DNA of 64,000 nt from Arenicola marina (taxonomy: Eukaryota; Annelida; Polychaeta; Arenicolidae), in contig OZ025252.1 of assembly GCA_964019135.1 (NCBI GenBank), positions 46,970,959 through 47,034,958 on the forward strand, given 5' to 3'. This document shows, piece by piece, positions 7,879 through 50,490 of the stretch. Position 1 is the stretch's first letter; each line of letters begins with the position of its first letter. Below the pieces are notes generated by a model. That model was not told the origin of the DNA. It saw nothing but the letters and a program-made list of their open reading frames with translations, and ran no database searches. The translations under genes and the position numbers were made by a program.

Positions 7879-7954
7879 ATGGCGGGCATATTTCCGATGT
7901 TGGTGCTGCTCCTGTTGCAAGCCGTTTCGAGTATCGCGACGACAGACATTTCTG
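7879..7954 (+). CDS. Exon 1: start codon and signal peptide
   Basis: ATG at 7879 has G at -3 and G at +4. It opens [20 protein letters not shown], a clear signal peptide with a hydrophobic Leu-rich core and small residues before a likely cleavage site near residues 19-21. The donor is TG|GTAAGT and the exon ends in phase 1. No other in-frame start lies closer to the hydrophobic core. Confidence 0.8.
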
Positions 7955-10900
7955 GTAAGTCTTGCGGACAAATATTCACATTACACAGTAGCATATCCAT
8001 AACTGACATCGACTTTTGCATGAGATGATATAATTTATACTGATGCACATAAAAAACAAGAAAACGTGGGATATTTTTGTATACTGAACTTTCAATAACA
8101 AGTTCTAGTTGTGGGGTTCTTGGCCTGCTGGTCACTTTCGCCTTTAATTGTTCCCGAAGCTTACATTCGCCTCGTGGACGGCCTTCCCGGTCGGAGCGGT
8201 CGTCTAGAGATCCTCTATGATGGCGAGTGGGGGACAGTCTGTGACGACGGATTCGACATCAATAATGCCACGTAAGCCACACAACCCACAGTGCACTAAC
8301 ACACCCACAGCGTCAACGTAAAGTGGTGCTTTACCCTGGCTTTTTTCCTTATTAAATGCCCTTCACGTCAGTTCAAGTATATTTTACCATATAATGTTGA
8401 AGAGATGGTTCTGGTGAGATGGTTTCGAAACTGGTGAAGAATATACCCAAGAGTATACCAACGTTTCTAGGTCACACAGTCATTATTTTTTCCGCACAAC
8501 CTCACCAGCATCCCCGCCTCTCCCGTCGAACGTTATTAGGACCTCCCCCCCCCCCCCACACATACACCACCCCGTTAGCAAATTTTTCACTTGATCCGCG
8601 TCTGGGTAGTATTAAAGCATGGTGCTCCCGCCACAATACATTCGAATGTTGATTCGTATGAGTCCTGTGAAATCACAAGAATAAAACGGTGGTGGGCAGA
8701 TGTGGTGGCAAGGAATCGCAGGAAACACAATTTGCTGAAGAATCACGTTTTGGAGTGGTTCGTTTCATCGTGATGAAATTAGGTAATTGCTGAACAAATA
8801 TCCAATATAACTCTTACCTTCATGTCCATTCCACGAGAAGTTGTACTTCGTTCCTGTATAATGATAAAGTAGTCAACGAAAGGCGCTACTTTTACATCAT
8901 TTAATATCAAATCAAAAACATCCTTCAAAGATGGAAAAGACGAAAGTTCCTCCTCCTACATCCGTTACAACGCGTAGCCATGACGCTCAATGCCAGGTTT
9001 TGTCATAACGTCCTCGATATTCCACATCCCCCCTTCCCCCAACGGGGAGGCCCGAAGTGCTAGGGCCGATGCGGCAGCTGTAGTCGTGGAAGGACCCACG
9101 GAGAGATGGAGAGAGGGCGTGGCGTGGACGGCGCTCTCGAGTGCTGCGGCGGGGCGGCTGGGGTGGGGGTAGCAGGTGTGTCGGCCTTGGGCGACGCCGG
9201 CACAGTCTTGGTGGGCACGAGGTCATTGACAACCGGCACGGCAGGAGGCGGCCCCTCGAGGACTGTCTCAGGGCAGACTACCCTCGAGTCCTCGAGATTA
9301 TTCTGCCCGGGAGGAGCGACCTGCGGGTCGGTGACCATGGGTGATGACGCAGCCGGGGTAAGGGGTAGGATTGTAGGTCGCGCATCGAAGGGTGTGTGCT
9401 TTCGTAGAAAGCGGCGGTTGCGTAAGGTGCACCAGCCCGATCCGTCCAAGCGAACGACATACTGATGGTGGTCACGTGACTCAACAATGCTGCCGGTTTT
9501 GTCCCAGCGCCGAGGATGATTGCCGGTCTGGTTCTGGACGGATACAAAGTCTCCAACCGTAAGCGGTGGCAGGAGGTTGGTGTGTTCGTTGTAGCGTTCG
9601 ATGGCCTTGATGTGACGGTGGGCGAGGGCTCGTTCTCGGTCCTCGGCCAGGGTTAGCCATTCCTTGAGGATCCGAAGCAGGCTGGGAAGATTGGGTATAT
9701 GGTCGCGTAGTGTGCGCCCGTAGAGCAGCTGAGCTGGTGACAGCTCTAGACCCGGCAGGGGTGTGTTCCGGTATTGTAGGAGGGCTCTGGCGAAGCGGTC
9801 GGTGTCGAGCCCGCCGTTTGCTGACATGTTGGACATCAAGAGGCGCTTCGCCGTCTTGACCGCGGCCTCGGCTCTACCGTTGCTCTGGGCATAGTAAGCA
9901 GAAGAGAGGCGCCATGTCACGCCCCACTGTTGGAGGAATCGCTGGACGTGATGGGAGGGAAATGGCTGTCCTCCATCTGTGGCAGCGTGCGGAGTTCTCG
10001 GCACAGGGATTTTGAATCGGTATGTAGAGAGTCGCATTTGGCGATTGACAACCATCCTGTGTACCGATCGGCGTAGGCTAGGTAGCGATGGCCTTGTAAG
10101 TCAAAGTAATCAGCGACAGCCAATTCGAACGGATAAGCTGGGGCAGGCGATGGCCTCATAGCTTCTGGGGCCTGTGATGGGGCGATCCTGTTGCAGGAGT
10201 GGCATTGTGCCCTGCGTGAGGAAATGGCAGAGTTCATCCCCGGCCAGAACACGCTGCGGGCGGCCCTGGCTTTCATGCCGGCGACACCCTGGTGGGCGGC
10301 GTGCAGGCCGTCGAGGATCTCCTTTCTGAGGGACGGCGGGATGAGGACACGATCATTGTAGGTGCATATGCCTTCGTAAGAGCTGAGGTGGTCCCGGTAG
10401 CGCCAGTATGGGCGGATCTCCTCTGGTAGCTCATTCTCTGAGTTGGGGAAACCGTTGGTGATGGTGGTCGAGAGGCACGTCATCGTGGCATCGGAGATGG
10501 AGGCCTCTCTGACGCGACCCAAAGTGATAGCAGAGGCGACGACGTCATCTGTATCATGAATGGCGTTTAGTGAAGCTAGGATGGATGAGTCACACTGACT
10601 GGCGAGGATGTCTGACTCAAGGCAATCAGTAGGTGAGGCTGCATCGCGGAGGGCATCGGCATGCGAGTTCCCTGTTGGGAGGCGGGAGCAGGCATCTGCG
10701 CTCTTCTGTGAGGCGCCAGGAATGTGTTTGATGTCGAAGGCGAACGGTAGGGTTTTCTCCTTTAGTCGGAATAGCCTGGGGTTTTTGATGGAATCTAGGC
10801 TCGAATCACCAAGAATTTTGACGAGAGGTTTATGATCAGTGGCGATGAGCAGGTCCTTGCAACCCAGAACAAACATACGACACTTCTGCAGGCCGTAGGC

Positions 10901-13900
10901 AACGGCAAGTGCCTCACCCTCAATAGGGGCGTAGCGGCTCTAAGGCCTAAGGAGTGAGACAACACGTGGGTAGCGCGACGCCAGGCCTTAGAGTTTTGGC
11001 GAAGGCTGTCAGCGGTATACGCCGGGTCTTGGGGAGTGTTTAAGGATAAGATCCATGAGGACGAGGAGGGGATAGCATTTACATCGCTCTTGATAGCCGG
11101 ATGTGACGCATCCACTTTCTTCCTGCAGACAGTCGCGAGGTGTGCCTTGATGCCGCAGTGGTCGCATATTGAGTCCCGCGCCGGGCAGTGTAGGTGGCGC
11201 GGGTGATCAGTGCCACGGCCATGTTCTTTGCTGCCACATCCTGGACAACCGACTGGTTTCAGTGCCTCCCTGTTCTTGTATTGCTGGGGGCCGCGTGATT
11301 TTTTAGACTTCTTGTATGAGGATTGTTGAGCAGCTAATGTCGAATCCCCACAGAGTTGTTCTTTCGCGCGCTTGCCGTCCTCCAGTGCTTGAACGAGGTC
11401 GAGCTTCTCTTGGAAAGAGCCCAACTGTGACGATTTAGCCAGGATTTCCCCTTGGATGTCTTTGTCCACCAGGCCTACGGTGAGCTGGTCGGAAACCATC
11501 TCCTGTGAGTAATTGTTGACGACGCCACAAGCGTGGTTGCAGCATGTGAAGGAGAAGTTGCAGTGTTCCGCCTTGGCTTTAAGTTTGGAGACAAATTGTT
11601 GGACGGGGCAATCTGGCTCTTGCTGTAGGGCATAGAATTCTTGGCGATGCACCGATTGGTTTTTGCCTTTAACTGCGAGCCGTTTAATGTTTTGTGTGAG
11701 GGCTTCTTCGGACAGCGTGTCTATGGTGCCCGCGCCCACGTAGTTGAACAGCTCCAGCCTGAGGTGCTGGGAGCAACACGCACGTAACTCTTCCGCCGCT
11801 GAGGCCGGTAGATTCGCCCTGCGCTTGTACAATTGCCACTCGTTGATGAAAAAAGCCCAGAATGACTCAGAGCAGCCCAGGTCTACTGATGGACGATCAG
11901 GGCGTTTGACAGACGTGGAGCCGGGTGCCGGGGGCGTGGTAGCTCTTTCCTGTTGCGTATGCTGAATCGTCAGGGTTTGGAGTAGCTGTGTGAATTGATC
12001 GGCCGTCAGGGTAATGGGGTTGGGGGTGGTGTTGCAGCAGGTGTCCCCGAGGAAGTGTTTGCTTCCTCTTTATCGCCCATGATGTGTGTGGGGTGCGTTA
12101 AACAGACCCGGATGCTTACGTGTATGGCGACGAGAGGACCGATGGGGGTGCTGAACAATCTGTGGACGTTTCTTATGCCGACTGCGCCATGTATAATGAT
12201 AAAGTAGTCAACGAAAGGCGCTACTTTTACATCATTTAATATCAAATCAAAAACATCCTTCAAAGATGGAAAAGACGAAAGTTCCTCCTCCTACATCCGT
12301 TACAACGCGTAGCCATGACGCTCAATGCCAGGTTTTGTCATAACGTCCTCGTTATTCCACAGTTCCCTCCAGTAAGCGCTTCGTTCTCACAACGTTGTAT
12401 CTCGCTTCCACCTCCAGTTGATATATCGTTCGCACGACTTATCCGGGCACTTTTGAAAGTCTGTAGAACACATTAAAATTAAAAGTAAGTCAACATGGGG
12501 GACTCCGTGTTGTAGTGCTTAGCACCCAACACAACAGATGCAGCTCAACTTTGCTACTGGACGGTCGGTGGAGGAGGGGTGGATGGGGGATGGGGGGGGG
12601 GGGGGGTCGGAGGAGGGAATAAAAGCTGTAACGCGGTCGTCCTCTCCTACTGCTCTGATACTAATGTATCGAGCTTTGTATTTGATAATTGATGGATGTT
12701 TGTCTGTTAAAGGGAAATGCCGGGCCCATACCATTTACATTTCCAGTTAAACTATAGGAATTAACTAAATATTACACAATTTTTTTATTTTTATTATCGT
12801 ACATTAGTGAAGTTCCAAGCACTTTTGCACGACCACCCAACCTATTTACGTCGCGTTAGAGTGTTTATGCGGATGGAACTTTCGGATGTATACAATATGG
12901 CGTAGCAAGAACAAATTTCACCAACTGATGATGTAATCGGGTATCAGTTTGAACCGGTAAGGGATCACGATAGTGGATTAGACATTGTTTATACAAGTTT
13001 TGACACATCGCGTAGTTAGTGAAGCCCTGTTGCATTAGAAGGGGGGTTGGGGGTGGGGGGGACGGGGGTTGAGAGTGGAGTCAGGGGTCCATCGTCGTCG
13101 TTGGCACGGTGCCCAATTCTGACTTGACTCATAGAGTGGCGGGCCATGGTTCGGGAAGCGTCAGTCGATGGTGTAACTTGATACAACTGCTGTCTTAGAA
13201 ACTCACTGCCACTGAAGGGTATATGGACAGAACGACCGTACTACCAGGTCGGTCGTATGGGTTGGGGTGGGTGGGGTGGCGGTCTATAGGAGTGGTGGAG
13301 AGTGGTGGAGGGAGGAGAGTTGATCTCGGATCACGTGTTCAGAACACCGCCACCCGTTGACGGGGGAAATCAGTATTTTATACTCAATGATGGTTTCTTT
13401 TTAGACAGAAAGTTGAACGGCAAATAAATTTTGTAGCAACAGAGTTTAAGTTTTATATCACATTGCAGCCGCCCCGTATTTTCTTTTAAAGGCAGTGTCC
13501 CCCACCATTTCGGCCTCGTTCCCACAACTTATTCTCAGGCATTCCAGTTTCCGTTATGATGAAGCATAACTATTTTCGGCCAGTGAAACGTCGTAGCTGA
13601 AGAAATGGTGAATCTACCGCTTTGCTTTTCAACGGTTTACTTTAAGCTGTTAGCGTTCCCGTTTACTACATACTACTTAAAATTTATTAAAGGTCAATGT
13701 TGACGCAATCTACTTCCGTCAATACCCGTCAATACCCGTCGGTCTATGGTGTGTATGTTATTTTATCTCTGGCGCCTTAATTGCAGTCTGATATGCCATC
13801 TCCTTGGCTACCCGGACGGCGGGATACCGTACTGCTGTGCCACGTTCGGCCCTGGCACCGGCCCTATCATCTCCAACCAAATAGACTGTCCCCCGGGCAC

Positions 13901-16900
13901 CACGGACTACAATGAGTGTTCCATGAATGAAGTGGAACGCAACAACTGCAGCCACAGTGATGATGTAGGCATCAGCTGCGGGCCGCGCATCGACCCAGGT
14001 ATGGGCGGACTATCCATTCCAAAGTGTCGGCCGCTCTTGATTTTGGCTTTTAATTCTGACATATTAATGAGAGCTAGACAGAGTTGACAGAGTTGACAGT
14101 AGACAGAGTTGATTCCATAAAAGCAAATATCTGAGAGGGAACTACATTCTGAGCTCCGCTCTCTAATAATTGTGCGGGAGGAGGGGGGGGGGCTTTGATT
14201 TTGCGGGGAAAACGCCATTCTTCCTGAAAAAGGCTCATTGAAGATTTCGTCTTGAACATTCATTTGCTTGAGGGGGTGGGTGAAAGCCCCCCTACCCCCC
14301 TAGATCCGGTTGCAGCTACAACAAGCTACTTTGCGATGTACTTCGTCGTGAAGCCCAACGTTTACAGTGAATGCTAGTTCACAAGGGTTGGGCTCTACCC
14401 ACGGACGGGTCTACGGGGTTGGTCCAGGGCGTCCACGGGTCTGCTCCCTTCTTTTTGAGGAAGAATGCCATTTTTCAATTCAAAATTGTAACCATCTGAG
14501 GCGTGGACCCCCCCCTCCCTCTATCGTCAAAAATTTGAATTGGTTGAGCCCCACCCGTCCAAATTTTGTTCCCCACCCCCCTGCCTCATTAATCGCAAGT
14601 TTGTAGTGGACCTCTCTCTTTACAAATTCCTGAATCCACCCTTGCTACCCGTGCTCACCTTGACATGTACTGCTCAACGCTACCTGGCGACGTTAAGCTT
14701 TTTCCGTGTGTGTACTTCTGTCACCAGAGGATGACACTCAACTTCTGTCTAGTTGGGGTTCCTCTGCCACACATTCTGTTATTATATCCTGACACTCTAC
14801 TGGCTGCGACAGGTTTGGTCTGCTGAAGTAGATTATTACCTTCATCATTAAAGAGTTCAAAAATGAGGCGTCATTATCCGGTAGCTGTCAGATGGCAGCA
14901 TAACTCAACGTCTAATTTGGTCGCCACGCCTGGCGAAGCGATTCACTTTCGAGATTGAGTTGCGGACTTAAGGAAGAGTAAAAACTCAGATGAGATGAGT
15001 CTTAAGTTGTTTGTAGAATATCATTAAGTTTTAAATCTTATCCTACCCAGAAAATTTAGATAAAGTGTAACATGTTATTTAAGCTTATGATGCATGCAGA
15101 ATACGGGTCCTGGAAATAATTTTTGACTCAAGTGTCCTCAGTAATCACAGATCATAGTAAATGTCCATAGCTGCCTGCTCCCATGGCCACGTACGCCAGG
15201 GGCACGGCGTCATCCCTCGTCACTGTAAAGTGACCAACCTGGCCTAACTATTGTGGCGAGATAAAGGTCATGTATATATGTACCTTCTTTTCAGAACCCA
15301 TTCGCCTGGTGGACGGCGTTTCCGGTCGGAGCGGGCGTCTCGAGATCTTTCATGACAACCAGTGGGGCACAGTCTGTGACGACAACCTTGGGACAAACGA
15401 AGCCAGGTAATCTTTCTCAGAGTAATTAGGCTAACAAATATTTTTCCGAACGGATATGAAGTTGGGCATAATGTATAAAAAACAAATAGGCCAACATCTA
15501 ACGTCTACCACATATATTGTTATCGATAAGTAAATAAGTTATCGAGGTAAGTAAACGAGTCGCATTGGTTAAAAGAAATAGACGATTTCCAGGGCGCATA
15601 TGACAGCTAACGGTGAAAATATAAACTAAGGTGTTGGGTCGCTTGGTTGGGACCCAAACCCGGACTTAACAATGTGAATAACCAGTTGGGATGTATTTGG
15701 TAGGTAGAAGAAATATATAAGCGGAAAAGTTAATTGTAAATGTACCTCCTCCTTGCTCAGTCTGTCTATTGATAACTAACTGATTTCTACATCAACAACC
15801 GTTAGTAGATTTTTGTAATATGTAGGAAATATTCCATCAAGCAATATTTTTATATCTATCTTGGTGGCAAGTCTAGCATTTCCCATGCAGTTAAATGACG
15901 CTTATATTAGAATCTTGCATTGTTTCCCGGCGCGGTTTTCAGCGCCGTGTGTCGACAGTTGGGCTACCCAGATGGAGGTGTGGCAGCATGTTGCGCAACT
16001 TTCGGCGAAGGCAATGGAACTATCTGGGCGGCCGACATAGACTGTCCTCCCGGAGCTTCCAGCCTAAGCCAGTGCGTATTCCCAGGTTGGGGCACTCACA
16101 GCTGTTTACACAAGGAAGACGTCGGTGTCAGCTGCATTCAGAACGTTACAGAAGGTAAGGGAATTTGAATATCCCTCCAAACCCTATATGAATGTGTGTT
16201 TGGGGATGGGGGGCGACTTGATGTGCAAATGGGTTTGTGCTTGGTAGTCTTGTAACATGGCCCACCTGTCGTCGGGCGGACCGGAGGGCTATGGATTTCT
16301 GAGCACGGCCTGTCGCCCGATAGCAGGGGGTGGTGACAACGATTTCTGGATTCCACACAAATGTAATGAAGCTATCACCTATATGTCACATATTCATGTC
16401 CAGGATACATTTATGAATAGTTAGGCACAAAGATTAAAGGCATCAAGCGCTACTCGCGAATTTATCGGCCAGCATAGGTGTGTGTGTGGGGGGGGGGGGG
16501 GTCTGATCACGAGGTTAATCAGACCCTGTTCCCAAATCACGTAAAATAAAAAAGGTCGATCCCGAGGAACCTGGATACCCCAAGCCATTTTGCACATCAA
16601 GTCGCCCCCCTCCGCAAACACACACCCCAGCCGCAGGGCATACGAGTAACCAGGAAAGATGGAATATTCAATGAGGAAAATACTTCTTATCGTATTGAAT
16701 GTATATGTAGTGATATCGTGGCTCGTAAAATGGAAACTTCATTTCTTATTGACTCTTTATTGCTTATCCACACATCCGCACTGATTCATTATAGACCGAT
16801 CCAGACCGGCTGTCAATCATTTATTGACGTCACTGTTGCTTTTATGCAATCATGTGGATAAAAAGGTCTTCCATGTGCGTTATGTTCGACAATCCCAGCA

Positions 16901-25900: not shown

Positions 25901-28900
25901 CCCACCCTAACCCGCGGGATCCGCGCCTGAGAAGATGTCTTGGTAAATGGAGCATCTAATGATACAGACAGATTATACAGCGGAAATATTAGCAAACTCA
26001 GGGACGTCATTCATATATGATTAACACCTGAATATGTTTAATCTACACATCGTCAATTATATCTAACCATCGTTGTTTGGCAGCTCTCTGTGACTTGGTC
26101 TTCGGTGAGTGTGAGAACGGAGGGCGGTGTGTGGACGATGGAGGACGGCCCTCGTGTGACTGCGGAGAGACCGGATTCACTGGACAGACGTGCGTCACAG
26201 GTAGGCAGAAGTACTCCATGAACACTTTCCACAGGTTGCTTTACCGTATGCAGTGACGACACATGGCCATTGGTAGCAACAGTTGTTATATCACCGGGGA
26301 CGCGACAGCTTGGGGCACATATGACCTTCGCCTCGACAATACATACACTATGAACAATGTATTTCCACGTCGTGTGTGGAGTCGACACATTCAAGTCATT
26401 CGTACAATGGTAAGGTAATCATGAAGCAAAATCCAGTAATTTTGACCTCCTCAAAACCTCGTAACCTATCACCATTTACATCCAAATTGGCATATCTAGG
26501 GCGGCCTGCCTTAAACTTTAAATGGATCACATAGTTATTTTTGCAGTTTTTATTAGCAACATATAATACTGACAGATGTCCCATTTATTGCCAAGAGGAA
26601 AGTGTACACTGATGAACTTTGTTCTTCAGATATCGACGAGTGTTTACCCAAGCCATGTCGACATGGCGGACAGTGCACCAACACCCCGGGCGGGTATGAG
26701 TGCCAATGTCAAAAGGAAGCAGGCACCACATATGCGGGTGCTACCTGCTCTAACGGTAAGTGTTACAGTGTTAGAAAGCATAAAATGTAGGGGTATAGTC
26801 TTGGGTTTTTTTTGTACTTTTTTGTACTTTCAACACCATAAGTATGCAACAAATTCACCCTTTGTGAGATAAATAGACCACTAATAACGCCGGTTTCGGC
26901 CCTTCGCCTCGAATACATATAATATAAAAAGTTTGTTTCCATGCCGTTAAGGTGTTGAATAAAAGCGTCTACACATTCAATGCTCATTCCTACAATGGTA
27001 CGTTAAGCATGAAGCGAAATCCAGTAATATGACATCATCGTAATCACGAAACCTTTACATCCAAACTGGCATTTCCAGGCCGGCCTACTCCGGAATCTCT
27101 ATGCCTGTTATGACAACTGGTTCCTGCCGTGACCCACAAACAGAATATCGTTTGTTATGCGCGTGCGTTGTGGAACTGCTTTCTCGTGTCCCTAATATAG
27201 ATATTATGATTGAAACTTAAACCGACGTTAAAGCGACATCGGTTCCCGCATCCTGCAACACAGCCAGAAAAAGACTTGGCGAAAAGGTTGCGGGGAGATC
27301 GCATTTGGGGAGCTGGAGTCAGTTCTTCGACAATCTCGCAAAAATCTTGGTTGATGGGGGGTGGGAGAATCCCAAAAATGGGTCTCCACGCCGAGGATAG
27401 CGTACATTTAACATTGAAAATGAGTATCCGCGCTCATCCCCATTACAGCGCAGAAGCCAGGTGGAGGACCTGTATTCTTGCATATCATTATTAGGAACCT
27501 TGTGGGTGAGGATTGCGCAGGAAACATGCCGGAACGTGAATCATGTAATACAGACCTAAAGTTATGTACTACTATGTGTTTATTTCTCTCGAACCACCAC
27601 CACTACGAGCACCCCTGTCACAGCGACTTGAATATGAAGTAACATTACTACCAATATAACATAACAAGCGAAAGCTCGCGTAAATTCATGACTGACAAAC
27701 GTTTCCAAACCATATGGAAATACTAAGTAATAAAAATACCATTTAGTACCAATATCAAATAATAGAAATGTGGCTTAGTGGAAATATTACTTATCATCTA
27801 ACTACTATAGACGTAACATACTATTTGAGGAAAATGCCACTTAGACAAGGTACATATAAATCGATATCCCATTCAATGGAAATATCCCTCATATATAGAC
27901 ATCTGTCGCCTCTGTGTTTCTCTTCATAAATATATATATGTGTGTTTCTCAATATTGTAGTGGTGAACAGGGAGCCGGAAGCATTAGATGTAACGCCCCT
28001 CTTCGGGCCGGTGGCGGGCGGAACGAATATTACCGTACTTGGTAATAACTTCGATGCTGGGTTTCAGCCAATACGCTTGCGCCTGCAAGGCGACAAGTAC
28101 GCGTGCCCAGTCTGGCAAAGGTGAGTTCCAGCACAAAGGTGTGCGGGCAAATATACATGTGTGTTATCATCTAAACGTATCTTGTTTGATGGGAAGCTTC
28201 AGGAAGGTTAATTGTTTTAACTTTTGTTAATTCTAAAGTGGTTACGCAAGAAGTGTAATTAAGCATCCGGACTGTCTGCAGTAGAATATATTTAATGTAA
28301 TAGAAACGTTGATCTGACACCAATATTGAGTTTTACATGCAGAATGGCATCCCCGCCTATTGGCATCTCACATAATTAATGACGCGCACAATTTTCCGCC
28401 AGCGCTAATATAAAACAGACCTGCAATACATTGATACATATCTCTCCGTGATGTATGACGTTGTTTTTGTGTCACACGAAGCAATGGGACGTATCTCGTG
28501 GCGACAACACCGCGCGGAGAGGACTTGGACGTTGGCGTGCCGCTATCCATTGAGGTTGTCTTCGAGGGGGGTCTGACAATCTCCACCCGGAAGTCATTCG
28601 AGTACCGCGCCAACCCGGAGATCACGTCGTTGTACCCAAACAACACCCTCCTCGAGTGAGTGGACCTGTCTTTATCCCTTTTCTTGCATTCGATGCCCGC
28701 TAGACATCAATTATTTTATTATTAAGAGAGTAGGTTTTAAGCTATGTATTAACATAGTTTTGAATCTATATATTATACTTACATTTTAATCCGTGTAATT
28801 TACGTAATTTCTAATCTATATAAGAAAGTTAATTTTGCTTCTATTTAATACTTAATACGCGTTATCCAGTATTGCATGTTTTTCCCAGAGCTCATAGATG

Positions 28901-31900
28901 TCCCATGTACCGATAATGTTGGTCCTTTATTTCATCCTCACCACTCATGCAATTATACATGCTTTATATATCTACTGTCCATGTGTATAAAATATCAAAA
29001 CAGGCGCACCTAGTAGACAACAACTCCTTAATTATCAGCGTTATTGAGGCACATGAAGTGCCATGCTGCTAGATGCCACCTTACGACTGATGGTGTAGTT
29101 AGATGCAACAAAATATAACTGACATCGATAATATGTGATTGCCAAAATTACATTCTAACGATAATAGCTTTAACACAATTATATCCATTTAACTGCTTGA
29201 CACAGGGGCGGTTCCACCTTAACGGTCGATGGCCAGGGACTGATGTCTGTGGACACTCCTTATCTAGAAATTACGATGGAAATAAACACAACAATTCATG
29301 AAACCTTCAACGTTATTATTGAAACAATCAGGAAATACTTTAGGGAGGTAAGATCGAGTGGTCATCGATCGAGATCATTCACCCACATTCCTACCGTCAT
29401 CACCATTATTTTGGTTACGGGTGTGATCGTGAATCACTGAGTTATAGTTTTAATTATAATTGCTATGACTGGTCTTGAATAGATATGAATGCGATTACTG
29501 CAAATCGTTTTAGAAACATTATTATCAAATAATCGTATTGTTATTATTTCCATATAATGTATGCGAATCATTTCTATTATTAGCTTATGGCTATTATAAA
29601 TAGTTATTATATTTAACCTTCTCCGCAGAGATGTTTTGTCCTAACCAACGAGAGGGCAGAGTGTCTCACTCCGGCGGTCGTGATACCGGACAGCTTTAAC
29701 GCATCAGACGAACATTCAACGCTGGCTTTGTATGCTGGGTTCATACTCGACGGGTATGAGAAATACCGGAATCTGCAAAACACCTCCCTGGAGTCGAGCC
29801 GAACGTTGGGATATGTCCCGGTACACAACATGACGCCGCGGACGAAAGTTTTTGTCTACAAAGGCCAGCCCCTAATTCTACGGGTAAGTTTCCGATGTAT
29901 TGATTTGAGTATAGGACGCTTTAACCAGAATAGGTCATATCGCGACAACGGGAAGGGTCAAGGAAGGGAGGAGTCATGTCACCATAGTAACCCACCTACT
30001 CTTTAAGAAGGAAGATCCGGGATATTTATCCTGGGCAAACAGCAGCATGTGTACAGGTGGGAGTCTAACCGCTTGCACCTGGCCCAGCACATAACACACG
30101 ACAGTAGCCGCACGCGCTATTTACAAAGATAGGGGCGACCCCAAGTCTCCCTTTAGCCATTGGCGAGTAGTCGTTGCATCCTCCAATGCACAGTTTGCAT
30201 TGCGCGTTATATTTGCTCATTATTGATAAAATCTTCATGTACTTATGTAGTCTGCAAATATGTAAGCATGATAAATTTAAATTTATTCTGATTTTGGGAC
30301 GAAGCGAACTTTTATTTGCATCTCTAAGATGTACTAATGGCGTATATGGATGTCAGGTCATATAGATCAGTGCGTCACAGTTCCATGCGGCAGAGATTGC
30401 CATGCATATAACCAGCTTTTATCTCAACCCATATCTCAACTGTGTCTACGTAAATCCCACGCAGGGTGCTCGTATCGACCCAGGCGCGGAATACTCAGTG
30501 CTGATTGGCCAAGGCGACTGTTTAATCACAGAGAAGACTTCTACGTCAATCCACTGTGATGTGCCGAAAGAGCCTCCTCAAAGACTCCCTTTCAGCGTGA
30601 GCAAGTACCACACGATAACGGTAAGAGAATCAGAGTTATTAATAGTGAACTATTTTTCACATGTTCCTTATCAGAAAGAAGAGACACGTCTGTGTATACA
30701 TACCAGTGTAGAAACTATTGGATTTAACAAGAATGTTTTCCACAAAAATATAGACAACTAACCCTTTCTGTAAGTGTTATGTCATAATGTCTCCTGCTGA
30801 ATTGCATAGTGTCATTGCACGTGTTATTAATTTAAGCAGCTACATTTAAATCTCTGTGATATTTTTATGATACAATATTATTGCGAGTTGATCGTCGTGT
30901 TACCTAGTATAATTCTGAAGGCCGCTAAAATCCTGTAAGCACCAGACCCCCCTTCGGCCTTTGCCCCAGACAATCGTTACCATAGTGACTTGGCGTAGAA
31001 TAATGAAATATTACGTCAAACACAAAATAATTGTGGTTGTTTAAATAGGGTATGTAAGTGTGTCACGAGACAAAACGGGAAACCGCGAGATTGTTTACTT
31101 CCGGGTACATGACCTGTGTACGGGTTCACCAGGTCACAGCCTAGCCGTCTAGTTGCCTAGCTATGCGTGCCGTTTCTTGCTCAGGGTATACTGATATATA
31201 CTTATATGGTGTAAAAAAGGCGAGTGGCTCACAAGATATGGGAAGGCTTGTAAGCGTTAAACATTTTACTTCGAACGTTGTATGCGAATTAAACCAAAGC
31301 AGCAAGGAGATGTTAACGCTCAGCAAATATGTGAGGTAAATTGGAACTTAAATTCAACTCGTAATAATAATAATAATAATAATATATTTATTGTCATAAA
31401 GGGGTTGCATAATACATTGTAACGGTAAAAGTACACAGTATAGAATATGACAAAAGTTGAAGCCGACGCCTATACGAGATAATAAAAATCCTTCTCCCCC
31501 CCCCCCCAAAAAAAAAACAAACAAAAAACATAAAAACCAACAAAAAAACATATATACATACTACATGTGACACTTTAATTACCTCGCGTGTCTACAGGTA
31601 CTATACACTTTAGTAAAGATTTTTGTACTTTCCTTTTATTTAGTGTCATAGAAGATCTAAATTCTACTTCACTGAACCACTTATTAAATAAACATATGCT
31701 TTGGTACTTAAACGACTTTTTAAATTTCTCCGTTTTAAACTTAGAGAGATGCAAACATTGGACTGACCTCGTTTGATACTTATGTAATTCAAAATTGTTA
31801 CTATATAAGTCAGCTATAGACTTCGGTACATCATTATTGAAATATATTATACCTACAAATAATTACGCAATATTCCAATATACAAGATACAGGCAAGATG

Positions 31901-34900: not shown

Positions 34901-37659
34901 GATACCTTGCTACACAACTCTAGCAATATCCCTATATAGATTGAAAGGCCTGACAGGTTGGCCCAGCGGCTCACTATGGTCATGCTGCTGTTAATTACGA
35001 TGCATGTCAATTTCCACTCAGATGCTAGCTACTTGTCTTACCAAGGCAATTAAGGCAATTAGCTTTGTGGTCAAGTAAATATGCACAGGATTGCAATGAC
35101 TCGCGTTATACAAGATATCGATTTTCTAATGACTCGTACTGACCGACATTTCGGATGAATGAATGAATGAATGAATGTACTTTATTCCTCCATTTGCTGG
35201 AGAGTCAGGAACGTGGAACATTAACAGTAAAATATTTACAAGGTACAATTCCAAAAGAATGACCGATATTAGTCATTTGAAAATAGTAATGCAGATTAGT
35301 CAAAAATATTTCAGTGCATGGTCATAAGATGCTCTATGCCAGCAAGATGCACTAATGCTTAACATGTTCTCAAATTCCTTCTCGTCGATCTCAATATTGG
35401 GCGGTTTTCTAAAATATGGGCTGTTAGTGACTCTTCTTCGGCATTATATAAATATGAGCTGAGGCGTACATTGCATGTATTGACAATTAAATTCCAAAAT
35501 AGTTTTCTTGCCTCGCTGTACTTTTCGCAGTGATGAAGGAAATATGGTAGCATGTCAATGCGGGGCATTGTGCAGTGCGGGCACGATTGCATGGATGGTC
35601 CCTGGCTTACGACACAGTTAACTTTGGCAAGGTATCTAACATGTTTCTTATGTCCAGGCAGCTCGTATTCCAATTTCCGTCTACTGTGGATATGTGGAAG
35701 GTCACCATACACATTATTAAAACGCGCATACTTAGGATGCTGCAGTTTTGTAGACATTCTTCCACATCTGTTTATACGGAAAGCTGCATTCATAACGGTA
35801 CCGGTCGAGATACCCTAACAATTCGTATTTGCCGAGAACACCCACAATATTTACTAAAAAACCACGAGCACGACGCGTTTGCTGCTGAGAGGGCTGGAAC
35901 AAGCGTTTTAAAAATACATTCTTCCCCAGTGTCGAGTGGCGCAATCGGCAGAGCCTCCCGAGGAACAGTAACTGCTTAATGTCAATTTCACAGTGCAAAG
36001 TTGCTTGTTCAGTGACATAGTGGCGCTGCTGTATTTTGGCAATCCCTGAATAGAAAGTATGCAGAAAGTATGGGCACGTTCGAGTTTAGAAGTTTCAGCT
36101 TTTGAAAGTGCATACTATAGTTCTGCACCGTATAGGGCGCGGGGAAGGACAATATTACGGTATTATTTAAGGGCACAAAGAGTACTCATACTGCTGGAGA
36201 GCGTGTTAGCTCCCTTTACTTTTTGGAACCCTTGTACAAAGTGTAGATGAGTCCTTTCTTTAGCTTTTCCGGGACATAACCACAACGATACATGGCGTTT
36301 TAACAGGTTGGTTATAATCTCAAGCAATACTGGAGAGTTTGGGGCAGACTCCGCGTGACGACGGTTGTCGGCGCTGACGTCACGCCCTCCGCGAGAGTTC
36401 GGGGCAGACTCCGCGTGAAGACGGTTGTTGGCACTAACGTCGTGGTCTATGGGGGATATGGGACCGGATTCCCCATGACGACGAAGCGATATTTCGTCTG
36501 ACTGTTTTATCACCACGTTACGCAGTAGAGTCAGCTCACCTGCTATGTCCTTAATTTGAGTTGGCCGAGAAGCAATCAGACCTGTATTTTCCCCGGCCCC
36601 TTCTTCTACTATGGTCAGTCGGTGCTTCTCCTGGCTTATGGTTAATCCGTCGAGTTTTTCGTGTATTCCTTCCACAAGGTGCGTGATGGTTTCAAGGCGT
36701 TCATCCACTCCCGCTATGTTGGTAACCAGGGCTTTGTTTACTTCTTGGGGATTATCGCTCATTGCTTGTGAAGTTTTTCTCTTTTCTCCTTTTAGATTCG
36801 GCCTTTTGTTTTCTCTATCGTCGCTTTTAGTCCTATGACGTTTCTTGGCAGCTTTTATTGATTTGGTATCTATGTATGCAAGTTATTTCGTTGTGGAATT
36901 TACATATTTTACTGCCGCCGGGTCTCTGTTGCCGCACTCGACCAGCGCCATTACGTCACCCCGAATAATAGTAATAGCGCAAGTTTTGCAAGGCGTTTGA
37001 AATTTAATTGGCCCTTCGTCAAGCTGTAGCAGCCCTTCATTTTCATTAATGAAAATTGACGGGCTGCTACAGCTTGATTTCGGGCAAGTAAGATTGCCTA
37101 ACGCCCCGCTAACTCGCGGTATTTCTATATTATGCGATTTTGTGATATTGCCGCGACATAATATTTTGCATTTTCCTCCTCGATATTGTCATTATATAAT
37201 AATGTTATGATTGTTATTACGCATTGTCATATATGTATTTCTTTGACATGAGTATTATGTCTGTAATATCACTACGCAATGATTAATTAATTGCAGCTGA
37301 ACATTTTAAGGAGTCTCAACTACACGATGGGAGAGGTGCAGTACCCCCCTGAGGAAGGCCTAGTGATCGGTCTCCCTGTTGCGGCGGCCGTCATCTTGGC
37401 TCTCGCTATCGTTGTCACGGTGGCCATAGTCGTCACTAGGAAGAAAAAAGCAGCGCAGAGGAAAACCGCGAAACGTATGGAAGAATGGATCGTCTTGCCA
37501 GCGCTACCCTCAGGCATTGCAGACAGCACCAGCAGTGACGACCCTGTTCCGATGCCGATTGACAATATCCGACTGCAGCGGGAGCGTGCGCGAGACTTAC
37601 AGCTGCAGCAGCATCTACAGGCAATGCAGCAGGACTGGTCGTGGAAAGCCACCTCGTGA
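7879..37659 (+). CDS. SRCR-EGF-IPT single-pass receptor, 23 exons, 1,296 residues
   Basis: Exons: 7879-7954, 8160-8271, 13787-13998, 15295-15406, 15943-16154, 17197-17308, 17594-17811, 18352-18463, 20789-21000, 22362-22473, 22659-22864, 23398-23509, 23869-24185, 25057-25173, 25545-25700, 26084-26200, 26630-26755, 27961-28120, 28482-28655, 29206-29347, 29629-29883, 30465-30620, 37297-37659. All introns are GT-AG and the sum is 3,891 nt in one frame. Order: signal peptide, six SRCR domains (26 to about 668), Thr-rich stalk (to 708), EGF (709-747), ephrin-receptor-like Cys-rich module (748-799), two EGFs (800-880), IPT region (881-1176), membrane helix (about 1198-1223), 73-residue tail. SRCR proteins often bind microbes or extracellular ligands, so a cell-surface recognition role is inferred. 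The IPT and juxtamembrane part resembles plexins and MET/RON, but Sema, kinase and RasGAP domains are absent. SRCR and EGF modules have phase 1 borders; the IPT part uses phases 2 and 0. Exon 22's start is the least certain boundary. Confidence 0.82.
8160..13998 (+). CDS. Exons 2-3: SRCR domain 1
   Basis: Exons 8160-8271 (112 nt) and 13787-13998 (212 nt) encode residues 26-133. The domain opens with [16 protein letters not shown] and EWGTVCDD, then [10 protein letters not shown] and the Cys-rich second half. It has the six cysteines of group A SRCR domains plus an adjacent Cys pair (YCCATF). The usual GWG after the sixth strand is replaced by a MNEVERNN stretch, so this is the most divergent of the six. 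The domain is split by a phase 2 intron of 5.5 kb, by far the longest in the SRCR part, which carries a Gypsy-type insertion. Confidence 0.82.
8855..9026 (-). repeat. LTR of the intronic Gypsy-type element (downstream copy)
   Basis: 172 bp, almost identical to 12190-12361. A purine-rich tract lies just inside it (about 9028-9045 read on the minus strand), which marks this as the 3' repeat of an element in minus orientation. Confidence 0.88.
12190..12361 (-). repeat. LTR of the intronic Gypsy-type element (upstream copy)
   Basis: 172 bp matching 8855-9026. On the minus strand it starts TGTGGAATAACG and ends CATTATACA, followed directly by the TGG of the primer-binding-type site. GTTCC just outside matches the five bases outside the other repeat. 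Confidence 0.88.
12362..13786. other. Remainder of intron 2
   Basis: No exon is recognisable. It holds a long G run near 12592-12605, GGGGTGG-rich sequence at 13040-13300, and a short tandem GTCAATACCC repeat at 13717-13740 just before exon 3. Confidence 0.45.
15295..16154 (+). CDS. Exons 4-5: SRCR domain 2
   Basis: Exons 15295-15406 (112 nt) and 15943-16154 (212 nt) encode residues 134-241. Motifs in order are [50 protein letters not shown], the CVFPGWG turn and KEDVGVSC. There are six group A cysteines plus an adjacent Cys pair. The phase 1 / 2 / 1 intron pattern is the same as in all the other SRCR domains. Confidence 0.87.
16194..16628. mobile_element. MITE-like inverted-repeat element in intron 5
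   Basis: GTGTGTTTGGGG..GGGGGGCGACTTGATGTG near 16194-16230 matches the reverse complement of 16580-16628, giving inverted repeats of roughly 40-45 bp about 435 bp apart. There is no coding potential. The target duplication is unclear. A G run of about 14 lies inside near 16488. Confidence 0.55.
16629..17196. other. Rest of intron 5
   Basis: AT-rich sequence with no recognisable exon or repeat. It ends in the acceptor before exon 6. Confidence 0.4.
17197..17811 (+). CDS. Exons 6-7: SRCR domain 3
   Basis: Exons 17197-17308 (112 nt) and 17594-17811 (218 nt) encode residues 242-351. Motifs are [42 protein letters not shown] and [11 protein letters not shown]. The second exon is two codons longer than in domains 1, 2, 4. 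It keeps the adjacent Cys pair, and Trp is present in the PIWLDNVDC stretch. Confidence 0.85.
18352..21000 (+). CDS. Exons 8-9: SRCR domain 4
   Basis: Exons 18352-18463 (112 nt) and 20789-21000 (212 nt) encode residues 352-459. Motifs are [61 protein letters not shown] and EDVGVLC. It has six cysteines and no adjacent pair. The second exon is very close at DNA level to that of domain 6. The 2.3-kb intron between its exons holds the 20-bp minisatellite. Confidence 0.86.
19431..19745. repeat. 20-bp minisatellite in intron 8
   Basis: About 15 units of the type ATAGCACCCTATATTAACTA. A group of four variants (80 bp) is repeated twice exactly in order, a higher-order repeat. A 32-bp sequence starting GCCGCGGCTACTGCGGCAAG occurs at 19377-19408 and again at 19813-19844, bracketing the array. 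Confidence 0.85.
20275..20289 (+). promoter_or_regulatory. CTCF-core-like site in intron 8
   Basis: GCTAGATGGCGCC fits 12 of 14 positions of the CCASYAGRKGGCRS consensus in its wider window. It is a motif match only, paired in core sequence with 7783-7794. Confidence 0.22.
21160..21490. repeat. Degenerate tandem repeat in intron 9
   Basis: Units of roughly 45 bp contain variants of CACCAAGATAATAAGTAAAC and AATAAGTCTATA. They are strongly diverged. No exon is seen between 21001 and 22361. Confidence 0.6.
22362..22864 (+). CDS. Exons 10-11: SRCR domain 5
   Basis: Exons 22362-22473 (112 nt) and 22659-22864 (206 nt) encode residues 460-565. Motifs are [59 protein letters not shown] and DVGVSC. 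The usual acidic pair after the first Cys is changed (EHLFGD). The second exon is two codons shorter than usual. Six cysteines. Confidence 0.86.
22985..23235. repeat. ACGTC-rich degenerate repeat in intron 11
   Basis: About 250 bp hold more than a dozen ACGTC or GACGT units at a loose 15-20-bp spacing (for example AACGTCT, GACGTC, TGACGTC). The same half-site is used by CREB/ATF factors, but a simple degenerate minisatellite explains it equally well. Confidence 0.55.
23398..24185 (+). CDS. Exons 12-13: SRCR domain 6 and Thr-rich stalk
   Basis: Exons 23398-23509 (112 nt) and 23869-24185 (317 nt) encode residues 566-708. Motifs are [61 protein letters not shown] and DVGVRC. After the last Cys the second exon runs on for about 38 residues rich in Thr, with MDTT-type repeats ([15 protein letters not shown]). 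This is a likely O-glycosylated, mucin-like spacer that separates the SRCR head from the EGF part. Donor CCAG|GTCAGT, phase 1. Confidence 0.86.
24186..25056. other. Intron 13
   Basis: No exon or clear repeat is seen. AT-rich, with an AATTAATTAATT stretch near 24700. Confidence 0.4.
25057..25173 (+). CDS. Exon 14: EGF domain 1
   Basis: Residues 709-747, with phase 1 on both sides. Six cysteines: [10 protein letters not shown], then [16 protein letters not shown], then ATC. The NSTNAGYTC stretch resembles calcium-binding or factor Xa-inhibitor-like EGF modules. An NST and an NAT are potential N-glycosylation sites. Confidence 0.82.
25545..25700 (+). CDS. Exon 15: ephrin-receptor-like Cys-rich module
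   Basis: Residues 748-799, phase 1 on both sides. The pattern [23 protein letters not shown] and a final QC fits the short Cys-rich repeat found in Eph receptors, SCUBE and SVEP1 (GCC2/GCC3 or ephrin-receptor-like family). It acts as a structural spacer in known proteins. Confidence 0.8.
26084..26200 (+). CDS. Exon 16: EGF domain 2
   Basis: Residues 800-838, phase 1 on both sides. Cysteine pattern [26 protein letters not shown], a classical EGF with the GFTG turn. It has no DxDE calcium motif at its start. Confidence 0.84.
26370..27100. repeat. ~130-bp repeat in introns 16 and 17, on both sides of exon 17
   Basis: The stretch at 26370-26515 (with AAATCCAGTAAT and CATTTACATCCAAATTGGCA) recurs in the same orientation at 26965-27100 (AAATCCAGTAAT, CTTTACATCCAAACTGGCA). 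It may be a dispersed element, or a trace of a tandem copy of an EGF exon with its intron. Confidence 0.55.
26630..26755 (+). CDS. Exon 17: calcium-binding-type EGF domain 3
   Basis: Residues 839-880, phase 1 on both sides. It begins [16 protein letters not shown], followed by [11 protein letters not shown], which carries the Asp/Glu and Asn...Tyr pattern of calcium-binding EGFs. It differs well from exon 16, so the two are not a recent copy of each other. Confidence 0.85.
27101..27960. other. 3' part of intron 17
   Basis: No exon could be supported. Ordinary unique-looking sequence that becomes AT-rich before the exon 18 acceptor. Confidence 0.4.
27961..28655 (+). CDS. Exons 18-19: IPT/TIG domain 1
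   Basis: Exons 27961-28120 (160 nt) and 28482-28655 (174 nt) encode residues 881-991. [20 protein letters not shown] is the classic IPT opening (P..GP..GGT..T..G.NF). The second exon continues to [19 protein letters not shown], where the ITSLYP start of the next IPT unit appears. Entry is phase 1, the internal intron phase 2, and exit phase 2, so the symmetrical 1-1 module pattern stops here. In plexins and MET/RON these immunoglobulin-like folds form the stalk under the Sema domain. Confidence 0.8.
28656..29205. other. Intron 19
   Basis: AT-rich, no exon or repeat recognised. Confidence 0.4.
29206..29883 (+). CDS. Exons 20-21: second IPT unit and plexin-like linker
   Basis: Exons 29206-29347 (142 nt) and 29629-29883 (255 nt) encode residues 992-1124. 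[13 protein letters not shown] opens the IPT fold, and [16 protein letters not shown] carries the usual strand with two cysteines. [18 protein letters not shown] matches the GF(I/V)xDG..S...L pattern before the last IPT of plexins. [10 protein letters not shown] and GQPLILR lead into the next domain, like the plexin segment that ends in LILKG. Exon 20 ends in phase 0, as do all later introns. Confidence 0.78.
30465..30620 (+). CDS. Exon 22: membrane-proximal IPT unit
   Basis: Residues 1125-1176. [19 protein letters not shown] continues directly from the LILR of exon 21, recalling ILKG..IDP..Y.VLIG..C of plexins and MET; the exon ends in SKYHTITV. I chose the acceptor CCCACGCAG at 30464 because it has a good pyrimidine tract with two CTCAAC branch-like sites and gives 156 nt, the same as the homologous exon at 49185-49340. 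An in-frame acceptor at 30380 would add 28 residues. Confidence 0.72.
31360..34730 (-). mobile_element. Non-LTR retrotransposon (CR1/L2/Jockey-like group), defective
   Basis: Read on the minus strand: a Cys-rich PHD-like ORF (34713-34282; [13 protein letters not shown]), an apurinic-type endonuclease (34265-33532; [30 protein letters not shown]), then reverse transcriptase pieces (33155-31863; [31 protein letters not shown]). The 3' end is AATAAA followed by an (ATT)n tail at 31361-31383. Frames are interrupted several times. Catalytic sites are damaged: the first RT aspartate of the usual D-F-S-K-A-F-D motif reads YFSNALD, and the FADD box reads FTDD. The 5' end is uncertain and may extend to about 34900. 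The group is judged from protein motifs only. Confidence 0.82.
35155..36960 (-). mobile_element. Second LINE remnant in intron 22: ORF1 and 3' end
   Basis: On the minus strand an ORF1-like frame (36762-36163) with coiled-coil character carries an internal repeat of HAESAPNS, encoded by a tandem duplication near 36335-36450. It is followed closely by an ORF2 C-terminal piece (35998-35359) with CPHC...HHC zinc-knuckle spacing. The 3' end has a (CATT)n tail at 35155-35177. Endonuclease and reverse transcriptase are not present, so the middle is lost. Confidence 0.68.
37019..37077. repeat. Near-perfect 59-bp palindrome in intron 22
   Basis: TCAAGCTGTAGCAGCCC at 37019 pairs with GGGCTGCTACAGCTTGA ending at 37077. 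The arms, about 29-30 bp, meet in the middle (TTTTCATTAATGAAAA) with essentially no loop and one or two mismatches. No associated gene. Confidence 0.8.
37297..37659 (+). CDS. Exon 23: transmembrane helix and cytoplasmic tail
   Basis: Residues 1177-1296 and the TGA at 37657. [15 protein letters not shown] is followed by a strong membrane helix ([19 protein letters not shown]..) and a basic stop-transfer stretch ([13 protein letters not shown]). The 73-residue tail has MEEWIVLPA (37477-37503), an acidic Ser-rich patch (STSSDDP), and a Gln/Arg/Leu-rich helix-prone end ([16 protein letters not shown]). It contains no tyrosine, so no ITAM or ITIM. The basic start followed by a helix recalls the plexin juxtamembrane region, but no RasGAP domain follows. 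Confidence 0.87.
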   Translation: MNILRSLNYTMGEVQYPPEEGLVIGLPVAAAVILALAIVVTVAIVVTRKKKAAQRKTAKRMEEWIVLPALPSGIADSTSSDDPVPMPIDNIRLQRERARDLQLQQHLQAMQQDWSWKATS

Positions 37660-46939: not shown

Positions 46940-47430
46940 TGTACTAACACATTGAGAACCACGTGCCTCGGCTGGCGTGCCTCACTCAAAAATAAACATA
47001 CATCGAGAGCCACGTGTCTCGGCTGGTGTCTCTCACTCAACAATAAACACACATCGAGAGCCACGTGTCTCGGCTGGCGTCTCTCACTCAACAATAAACA
47101 CACATCGAGAGCCACGTGTCTCGGCTGGCGTCTCTCCCTCAACAATAAACACACATCGAGAGCCACGTGTCTCGGCTGGCGTTTCTCCCTCAACAATAAA
47201 CACACATCGAGAGCCACGTGTCTTGGCTGGCGTCGCTCACTCAACAATAAACACACATCGAGAGCCACGTGTCTCGGCTGGCGTCTCTCACTCAACAATA
47301 AACACACATCGAGAGCCACGTGTCTCGGCTGGCGTTTCTGACTCAACAATAAACACACATCGAGAGCCACGTGTCTCGGCTGGCGTCTCTCACTCAACAA
47401 TAAACACACATCGAGAGCACACGTGTCTCG
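46940..47430. repeat. 51-bp minisatellite with a CACGTG in each unit
   Basis: About nine copies of a 51-bp unit (CACACATCGAGAGCCACGTG, TCTCGGCTGGCG...). Because 51 is a multiple of three, long frames are open on both strands (46882-47457 minus, 46889-47447 plus); these are shadows of the repeat. Degenerate relatives lie at 46820 and 46870. The array starts about 120 bases beyond the paralogue stop codon. Confidence 0.9.
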
Positions 47431-49340: not shown

Positions 49341-49429
49341 CTGCGGCACAGAATTTAAAAATCGATGTTCAAAGACTATGCACATTGCATACGGTGTTCT
49401 TCAACGCATGGACCAACATATATTGTGAC

Positions 49430-50490
49430 AGTGACGGTGACACACCACGGGCCGACAGTGACACACCAGGGGTGAACAGTGACGCACCAGGGGTGAACAG
49501 TGACGCACCAAGAGCCGACAGTGACACACCACAGGCCGACAGTGACACACCACAGGCCGAGAGTGACGCACCATGGGATGACAGTGACATACCACGGGCC
49601 GACAGTGACACACCACGGGCCGACAGTGACACACCACGGGCCGACAGTGACACACCACGGGCCGACAGTAACGCAACGCGGGCCGACCGTGACACACCAC
49701 GGGCCGACAGTGACACACCAGGGGTGAACAGTGACGCACCAGTGGGAAACAGTGACGCATCAAGGGCCGACAGTGACACACCACAGGCCGAGAGTGACAC
49801 ACCACGGGCCGACAGTAACGCAACACGGGCCGACCGTGACACAGCACGGGAGCACAGTAACACACCACGGGATGATAGTGACATATCACGGGCCGACAGT
49901 GACACACCATGGGTCGACAGTGACACACCGAAGGCCGACAGTGACACACCACGGGCCGACAGTGACACACCACGGGATGATAGTGACATATCACGGGCCG
50001 ACAGTGACACACCACGGGATGATAGTGACACACCACGGGATGATAGTGACATATCACGGGCCGAAAGTGACACACCACGGGATGATAGGGACACACCACG
50101 GGCCGGCAGTGACACACCACGGGCCGACAGTGACACACCACAGGCCGACAGTTACACATCACGGGCCCACAGTGTTACACCACGGGCCGACAGTGACACA
50201 CCACGGGCCGACAGTTACACACCACGGGCCGACAGTGGTATACCACGGGCCGACAGTGACACACCAAGGGCCGACATTGACACACCACGGGCCGACAGTG
50301 AAACACCACGGGATGATAGTGACATATCACGGGCCGACAGGGACACACCACGGGCCGACAGTGACACACCACAGGATGATAGTGACATATCACTGGCCGA
50401 CAGTGACACACCACGGGCCAACAGTGACACACCACGGGCCGACAGTTACACACCACGGGCCGACAGTGACACATATATAGAGGCCAGTAC
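49430..50490. repeat. 21-bp minisatellite, about 50 copies
   Basis: The main unit is GACAGTGACACACCACGGGC plus C. A second unit type has GATGATAGTGACATATCACG, and others carry GGGGTGAACAGTGACGC. The unit is a multiple of three without stops in several frames, so long frames are open on both strands (437 residues of DSDTPRA repeats on plus). No start context, splice sites or flanking coding sequence support a protein. Confidence 0.92.

Follow-up and report, generated by a model that had tools for sequence, protein, structure and literature searches.

Gene structure at the locus

The window analysed here is a stretch of 64,000 nt from Arenicola marina (C5:46970959-47034958, contig OZ025252.1), taken from a genome of 867 Mb in 762 contigs. 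It carries a gene on the plus strand at 7879-37659. Rebuilt from the raw sequence, the gene has 23 exons, 22 GT-AG introns, and 1,296 codons followed by a stop (Table 1). Intron phases are consistent across the gene, and the reconstructed exons hold a single stop, at the very end. Each of six SRCR domains is flanked by phase-1 introns and contains a phase-2 intron, and phase-1 introns also flank every EGF or ephrin-receptor-like module. Along the IPT exons the phases are 2,2,0,0,0. This independent rebuild reproduced the coordinates, the exons and introns with matching phase, and the product length given in an earlier sequence-only reading of this DNA. The gene is real, and it is known here from genomic sequence.

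Table 1. Features of the gene (window positions)
Feature	Position	Strand	Evidence
Exon 1: start codon and signal-peptide-like stretch	7879..7954	+	exon rebuild, hydropathy
SRCR domain 1 (exons 2-3: 8160-8271, 13787-13998)	8160..13998	+	exon rebuild, Pfam
SRCR domain 2 (exons 4-5: 15295-15406, 15943-16154)	15295..16154	+	exon rebuild, Pfam
SRCR domain 3 (exons 6-7: 17197-17308, 17594-17811)	17197..17811	+	exon rebuild, Pfam
SRCR domain 4 (exons 8-9: 18352-18463, 20789-21000)	18352..21000	+	exon rebuild, Pfam, PDB match
SRCR domain 5 (exons 10-11: 22362-22473, 22659-22864)	22362..22864	+	exon rebuild, Pfam
SRCR domain 6 plus Thr-rich linker of 41 residues (exons 12-13: 23398-23509, 23869-24185)	23398..24185	+	exon rebuild
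Exon 14: EGF-like (FXa-inhibition type) module	25057..25173	+	exon rebuild, Pfam
Exon 15: ephrin-receptor-like module	25545..25700	+	exon rebuild, Pfam
Exon 16: EGF module	26084..26200	+	exon rebuild, Pfam
Exon 17: calcium-binding-type EGF module	26630..26755	+	exon rebuild, Pfam
Exon 18: first part of first IPT; preceding intron phase 1 (plexin: phase 0)	27961..28120	+	Pfam, intron comparison
Exon 19: rest of first IPT, beginning of second	28482..28655	+	intron comparison
Exon 20: second IPT	29206..29347	+	intron comparison
Exon 21: GFILDG linker (29737-29754), beginning of third IPT	29629..29883	+	PDB search, intron comparison
Exon 22: third IPT	30465..30620	+	PDB search, intron comparison
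Exon 23: membrane helix (about 37357-37434), cytoplasmic tail, stop	37297..37659	+	hydropathy, intron comparison
Conserved tail motif (13 protein letters)	37477..37515	+	tail comparison

The gap between exon 13 and the following EGF exon is under 1 kb, both in the window copy and in the paralog B2. Intron 22, before the membrane exon, is 6.7 kb long in the window and contains retroelement-like sequence. In B2 the same intron measures about 760 bp, so the distance in the window casts no doubt on exon 23. The retroelement-like sequence in intron 22 (31860-34710, minus strand) comprises several frames that by eye resemble non-LTR reverse transcriptase. Intron 2 holds long open frames (9060-12069, minus strand) that look gypsy-type-retroelement-like by eye and have no match in the B copies. 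Tandem repeats lie between the gene and the window end, at 46947-47430 (unit about 51 bp) and 49431-50431. A partial relative at 47554-49400 on the minus strand retains the third IPT exon, the membrane exon, and the MDDWVVLPASLS motif in a shifted frame. Elsewhere in the assembly, codon use in mitochondrial COX1 (contig C762) fits the invertebrate mitochondrial code: AGG occurs 0 times in 519 codons, and AAA falls at Lys sites, ATA at Met sites, and AGA at Ser sites, judged by universally conserved residues. This codon use speaks against an echinoderm source, which the SRCR expansion had at first suggested. Matches beyond 30 Mb occur on contigs numbered as high as C20.

Domains of the predicted receptor

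A Pfam search of the 1,296-residue product recovered SRCR in six stretches (E 7.7e-153, 498 bits against a cut-off of 26.1), TIG in three stretches ahead of the membrane segment (E 4e-20), Ephrin_rec_like (2e-06), and EGF (2.9e-06). The six SRCR, EGF, ephrin-receptor-like, and IPT modules proposed by the sequence-only reading are therefore confirmed. Its plexin-type GFI.DG linker is present as GFILDG. As it had also said, a Sema domain and an enzymatic part are missing: Pfam found no Sema, PSI, kinase, or RasGAP/plexin cytoplasmic domain in the product at E up to 1. Hydropathy agrees with the proposed signal peptide, single membrane helix, and short tail, giving a hydrophobic N-terminal stretch within residues 1-26, one strong membrane segment at 1194-1226, and 73 residues after it. 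The ectodomain contains 20 N-glycosylation sequons.

In SRCR group A, each domain is spread over two exons and has six Cys. All six domains here are split over two exons. Domains 4-6 have six Cys each, and domains 1-3 have eight each. The earlier description as six group A domains stands in number, with a correction to the Cys count, which is that of group A in domains 4-6.

A tandem family on C5

The gene belongs to a large tandem family, a point absent from the first reading, as is the occurrence of the EGF-IPT-membrane part elsewhere in the genome behind other modules. Units of the family were defined by three genome searches, with the IPT-tail part (at least 102 matches; best 100 of 289 candidates scored), the EGF part (at least 54 matches; best 150 of 594 candidates scored), and the tail exon (all 107 candidates scored, giving 69 matches with E no greater than 1). 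Among the matches listed, C5 carries at least 14 EGF-IPT-membrane units in three clusters, with eight at 46.64-47.07 Mb, three at 39.0-39.2 Mb, and three at 26.4-26.6 Mb; this count leaves out an isolated tail at C5:39.22 Mb. One further unit lies at C1:59.17 Mb. Same-strand SRCR matches are found between the unit and the previous unit for 13 of the 14 C5 units, among the SRCR matches listed, with the nearest at 0.6 to 41 kb. Every plus-strand C5 SRCR match among the best listed (83/83) is upstream of a unit, and none is inside one. The unit at C5:39.01 Mb has no SRCR upstream among the matches listed, and the unit at C1:59.17 Mb has none within 8 kb upstream, so some members of the family may lack an SRCR head.

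Additional exons for the missing plexin and MET domains were looked for in the genome. Sema gave seven matches, none on C5, and plexin RasGAP gave 11, all on C1. No kinase was found in C5:46.6-47.1 Mb among the matches listed (best 115 of 1179 candidates scored). As far as sequence reaches, the two refuting conditions named in the sequence-only reading, such extra exons and a split into two genes (considered below), both turned out in the gene's favor.

Some other features of the clusters were observed. In the C5:46.64-47.07 Mb cluster, seven of the eight units are followed by a tail match on the minus strand, and two minus-strand tails resembling that of the window occur in the 26-Mb cluster. 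The arrangement would fit an ancestral tail-to-tail pair of which each cluster lost one member. At C5:26373282-26393670 there is a row of SRCR matches spaced about 1-3 kb apart, eight of them with near-equal scores at about 2.1-kb intervals, which we read as a probable recent expansion of SRCR exons within one unit.

Selection, duplication, and the integrity of the gene

The paralogs B1 and B2 are mostly 85-92% identical in DNA to the window copy. Against B1 and B2, respectively, dN/dS is 0.22 and 0.24 in SRCR exons 2-8, 0.40 and 0.42 in exons 14-17, 0.33 and 0.14 in IPT exons 18-22, and 0.23 and 0.30 in exon 23, where the one stop counted is the natural stop. The count omits exons 1 and 9-13, and the B copies differ in SRCR layout over exons 9-13. 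These values (0.14-0.42 against two diverged copies) indicate purifying selection on head, stalk, and tail.

A much closer copy, A2, also exists. Window positions 1-52086 are duplicated at C5:46844699-46897001, 126 kb apart, at about 98-99% identity in long pieces, and the window unit and A2 share about 99% identity over more than 40 kb with transposon-like sequence included. Either the duplication is recent or the assembly may have retained two haplotypes. The family holds regardless of this question because B1, B2, U1, and the 39- and 26-Mb units diverge far more. Between the window and A2, the IPT exons differ by 10 nonsynonymous and 4 synonymous changes, concentrated in exon 18. That exon is 94.4% identical to A2 and 98.3% to B1, and the other exons are 98.6-100% identical to A2. 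Gene conversion between units is the likely cause of this pattern.

A decaying locus, in which a pseudogene copy stays in frame by chance, might be considered on account of the retroelement-like frames seen by eye in introns 2 and 22 and of the partial inverted copies within the window. It is scarcely credible, since comparison with three tandem copies shows neither an internal stop nor a net frameshift in the exons covered, and dN/dS is well below 1 against both diverged copies. Very unlikely, though a little less so, is the reading of two neighbouring genes, one for the SRCR domains and another for the EGF-IPT-membrane part. In its favor, the nearest SRCR match listed is 36-41 kb away in some units at C5:39 Mb, one C5 unit has no listed SRCR, and the rest of the receptor occurs elsewhere in the genome without a listed SRCR. 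In the window gene, however, the phases match at the junction, and the exon carrying the last SRCR part and linker is followed by the EGF exon within 1 kb, as in B2. In B1 and B2 the last SRCR exon lies in an open frame of 643 and 678 codons; the exon extends as a Thr-rich linker of 566 and 601 residues with TTTMD-type repeats, ending at a donor (G/GTCAGT, the slash marking the exon end) identical in B1, B2, and the window copy with its 41-residue linker. The two-gene reading was rejected because of the matching junction phases, this long open linker exon, and the order repeated in 13 of the 14 units.

Plexin-like introns in the IPT stalk

True plexins, recognized by their RasGAP exons, occur in this genome at C1:11.48 and C1:20.65 Mb only (the 11 matches above). 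The window gene was compared with the IPT-membrane exons of the plexin at C1:20.65 Mb, whose exon ends were picked by eye, guided by the window gene, and whose first intron is GC-AG. From the IPT region to the membrane exon, the intron phases are equal at five of five positions (2,2,0,0,0 in both genes). The second, third, and fifth introns fall in the same alignment column, and the first is 2 columns off. The fourth lies at the same motif glycine as in plexin but is 7 columns off in the automatic alignment; it was counted as matching because of the motif and the plexin-A1 alignment. The genes differ at both ends of this segment. The head-joining intron has phase 1 before exon 18 of the window gene and phase 0 in plexin, and the join appears to lie at this intron, whose phase-1 side is typical of SRCR/EGF modules. 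The membrane exon of plexin ends at a donor and the gene continues, whereas that of the window gene ends in a new tail and a stop. We take the IPT-membrane segment to share common descent with plexins. The SRCR head on a plexin-type IPT stalk, as first proposed, is thus supported by Pfam, by the ranking of PDB matches, and by the five shared phases.

The SRCR head

A PDB sequence search found SRCR domain 4 strongly similar to the SRCR domains of CD163, SCARA5, MSR1, MARCO, and DMBT1, with CD163 the best match. By eye, domain 4 keeps the acidic cation-site residues (TVCDD, WADDV, HNC, HSED) and is the only one of the six with the full acidic set. The key Asp pair, also mapped by eye, is complete in domains 1 and 2, reduced to one Asp in domains 3 and 6, and absent from domain 5. 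DMBT1 and MARCO SRCR domains bind ligands through cation sites, and in a SALSA/DMBT1 domain mutation of either of two Asp abolished binding (PMC7043408).

The cytoplasmic tail

The tail has no Tyr among its 73 residues, and Tyr-based signaling motifs were rejected for this reason. Having neither an enzyme nor a Tyr, the tail would require a docking partner if it signals. Thirteen tails and plexin were compared. Ten tails (two of the 46-Mb cluster and one each of eight others) align, with G, L, and P invariant. After the helix lies a motif, [DE]xW(I/V)xLPxLP, that is not found in plexin. Four tails read from units that SRCR matches precede retain it, as does the tail at C1:59.18 Mb, and all five of these C5/C1 tails contain EEWIVL, DDWIVL, or DDWVVL. 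Outside C5 and C1, W is replaced in five of eight families, and relatives including those at C6:9.14 and C3:45.25 Mb lack the aromatic residue. Because the query that found the relatives contained the motif, its conservation among them partly reflects ascertainment; the evidence is more independent only for C4:38.03, C18:15.82, and C6:43.75 Mb, where other exons of the receptor were also read. The relatives at C6:9.14 and C18:31.3 Mb have single-exon tails of more than 300 residues with LYPE stretches.

The consensus of a W-type LIR, the motif that interacts with Atg8/LC3 proteins, is acidic residues followed by a W..L core. EEWIVL, DDWIVL, and DDWVVL, one of which stands in each of the five C5/C1 tails, fit this consensus. 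The tail might accordingly be an LIR that binds Atg8 and ties uptake to Atg8 conjugation on phagosomes, as an outside chance of the order of a die throw; LC3-associated phagocytosis has been described (PMC11810923). An endocytic or SH3-type adaptor is as likely a partner as Atg8, and a PxxP or other adaptor site would also fit. LIR was not accepted as a certain function of the tail because W is missing in several relatives.

Relatives on other chromosomes

Weaker tail-exon matches occur on C4, C6, C18, C13, and C3. EGF and calcium-binding-type EGF modules are found at C4:38.03, C18:15.82, and C6:43.75 Mb (by eye, with Pfam for C4 alone), and IPT exons at C4 (TIG 4.8e-09) and C6 (by eye). Upstream at C4 there are EGF repeats (1.6e-06), and in the PDB the IPT part of this relative resembles MET and plexins. 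An apparent Thr/Pro-rich linker at C4 was dropped because it is the same DNA as the EGF exon in another frame. At C18:15.82 Mb, ephrin-receptor-like repeats share a frame with a Thr-rich stretch (by eye), and at C18:31.29 Mb a row of such repeats (2.5e-39) lies 7 kb ahead of the tail match. At least four more candidate pairs of ephrin repeats and tail were found, with weak tail matches (E 0.0055 to 0.93). No SRCR lies within 0.5 Mb of the places on C4, C6, C18, C13, and C3 among the matches listed.

These relatives suggest, tentatively, a wider reading. In this lineage a plexin that lost its guidance head and RasGAP may have become a general receptor chassis of ephrin-receptor-like/EGF modules, three IPTs, a membrane helix, and a [DE]xW(I/V)xLPxLP docking tail. 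It would carry interchangeable heads, namely SRCR arrays on C5, EGF repeats on C4, and ephrin-receptor-like repeats on C18, and would use one shared intracellular partner, possibly an Atg8 protein linking recognition to phagosome maturation. Loss of the C4 linker makes this head-swapping reading somewhat less probable. If true, it would describe an innate receptor superfamily with swappable heads and a common intracellular partner.

Proposed origin and function

The best explanation, to which we assign a probability of roughly 0.7, is that this is one gene for a type I receptor formed by exon shuffling, with an SRCR-EGF head on a plexin-like IPT-membrane cassette, later expanded in tandem and with a role in recognition or uptake. 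Exon shuffling would have placed a head made of a signal peptide, an array of six SRCR domains, and EGF/ephrin-receptor-like modules before a plexin-like part that kept its last three IPTs and its membrane exon but not the Sema head or RasGAP. The resulting gene would then have expanded in tandem. The SRCR head is predicted to bind ligands through cation-bridged acidic sites, and the Thr-rich linker (41 to about 600 residues, depending on the copy) and EGF-IPT stalk would hold the head at a distance from the cell. Inside the cell, an adaptor may dock on the conserved [DE][DE]W(I/V)VLPxxP motif and lead to signaling or uptake. Most likely, then, this is a lineage-expanded receptor that recognizes or takes up microbial or altered-self material; the ligand, uptake, and docking partner are inferred.

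Two other readings, both unlikely, concern the source of the stalk and the use made of the receptor. Instead of plexin proper, the source of the IPT part may be a receptor of the MET/RON type or an ancestor shared by plexins and MET. MET (7mo7) is among the best PDB matches of the IPT part at 3.6e-09, and the IPT part of the C4 relative matches MET best (4.6e-07, with plexin-A1 at 5.2e-07). For the window gene, plexin-A1 scores best (3.1e-12, followed by plexin-A4 at 1.6e-09) and aligns over all three IPT domains while MET aligns over about half, and five intron phases are common to a plexin, all of which argues for the plexin side. The receptor could alternatively modulate semaphorin-plexin signaling or cell-cell (allorecognition) signaling, its stalk pairing with true plexins or with family members. 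The whole IPT-membrane segment is plexin-like, the pre-membrane exon included, and an expanded family with a highly variable linker length is expected of self-recognition genes too. Against such modulation, the Sema head and RasGAP are absent, and the tail motif is missing from plexin. Recognition and uptake by an SRCR-headed receptor remains the preferred reading.

To our knowledge, how SRCR heads signal is mostly unknown, and invertebrate SRCR expansions are a long-standing puzzle of immunity. Here the heads are carried by a recognizable cassette of probable plexin derivation, whose tail is short, conserved, and without an enzyme, and this makes it feasible to fish for the partner directly. 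The shared introns indicate that the stalk of a guidance receptor was re-used for another kind of receptor, and the changes of head can be followed in a single genome.

Comparison with known systems

No description of SRCR and IPT in one protein was found in the openly accessible literature covered (including PMC10855680, PMC8242945, PMC7663992, PMC13409769, PMC6374515, and PMC5094078). In PMC5094078, IPT belongs to NF-kappaB, and in the main text of a survey of 29 metazoans (PMC10855680) IPT, TIG, and plexin do not occur. Predicted proteins of the SRCR-IPT kind may exist unnamed.

CD163-type scavenger receptors resemble this protein in their row of SRCR domains and include the closest PDB match of domain 4. 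CD163 is not known to have an EGF-IPT stalk. Group A of the SRCR superfamily (DMBT1/SALSA, MARCO, and the sponge and sea-urchin expansions) shares two-exon domains, tandem clusters, a variable number of domains, and EGF partners with the family described here (PMC10855680), but the anchor of this gene is a plexin-type IPT-membrane cassette. Plexins have in common with it the last three IPT domains, the GF(I/L).DG-type linker, the pre-membrane and membrane exons, and the five intron phases, whereas this gene lacks Sema, PSI, and RasGAP and has an SRCR-EGF head and a new tail. The MET, RON, and Met-LP receptors share the IPT stalk and single membrane pass, and differ in their Sema head and kinase, neither of which is present here. 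Met-LPs are another case of a plexin ectodomain fused to a new partner (PMC6374515). Judged by its sequence features, the protein is best placed as a variant of the SRCR superfamily by its head, with an anchor probably derived from plexin, and by defining features it is neither a plexin nor a MET.
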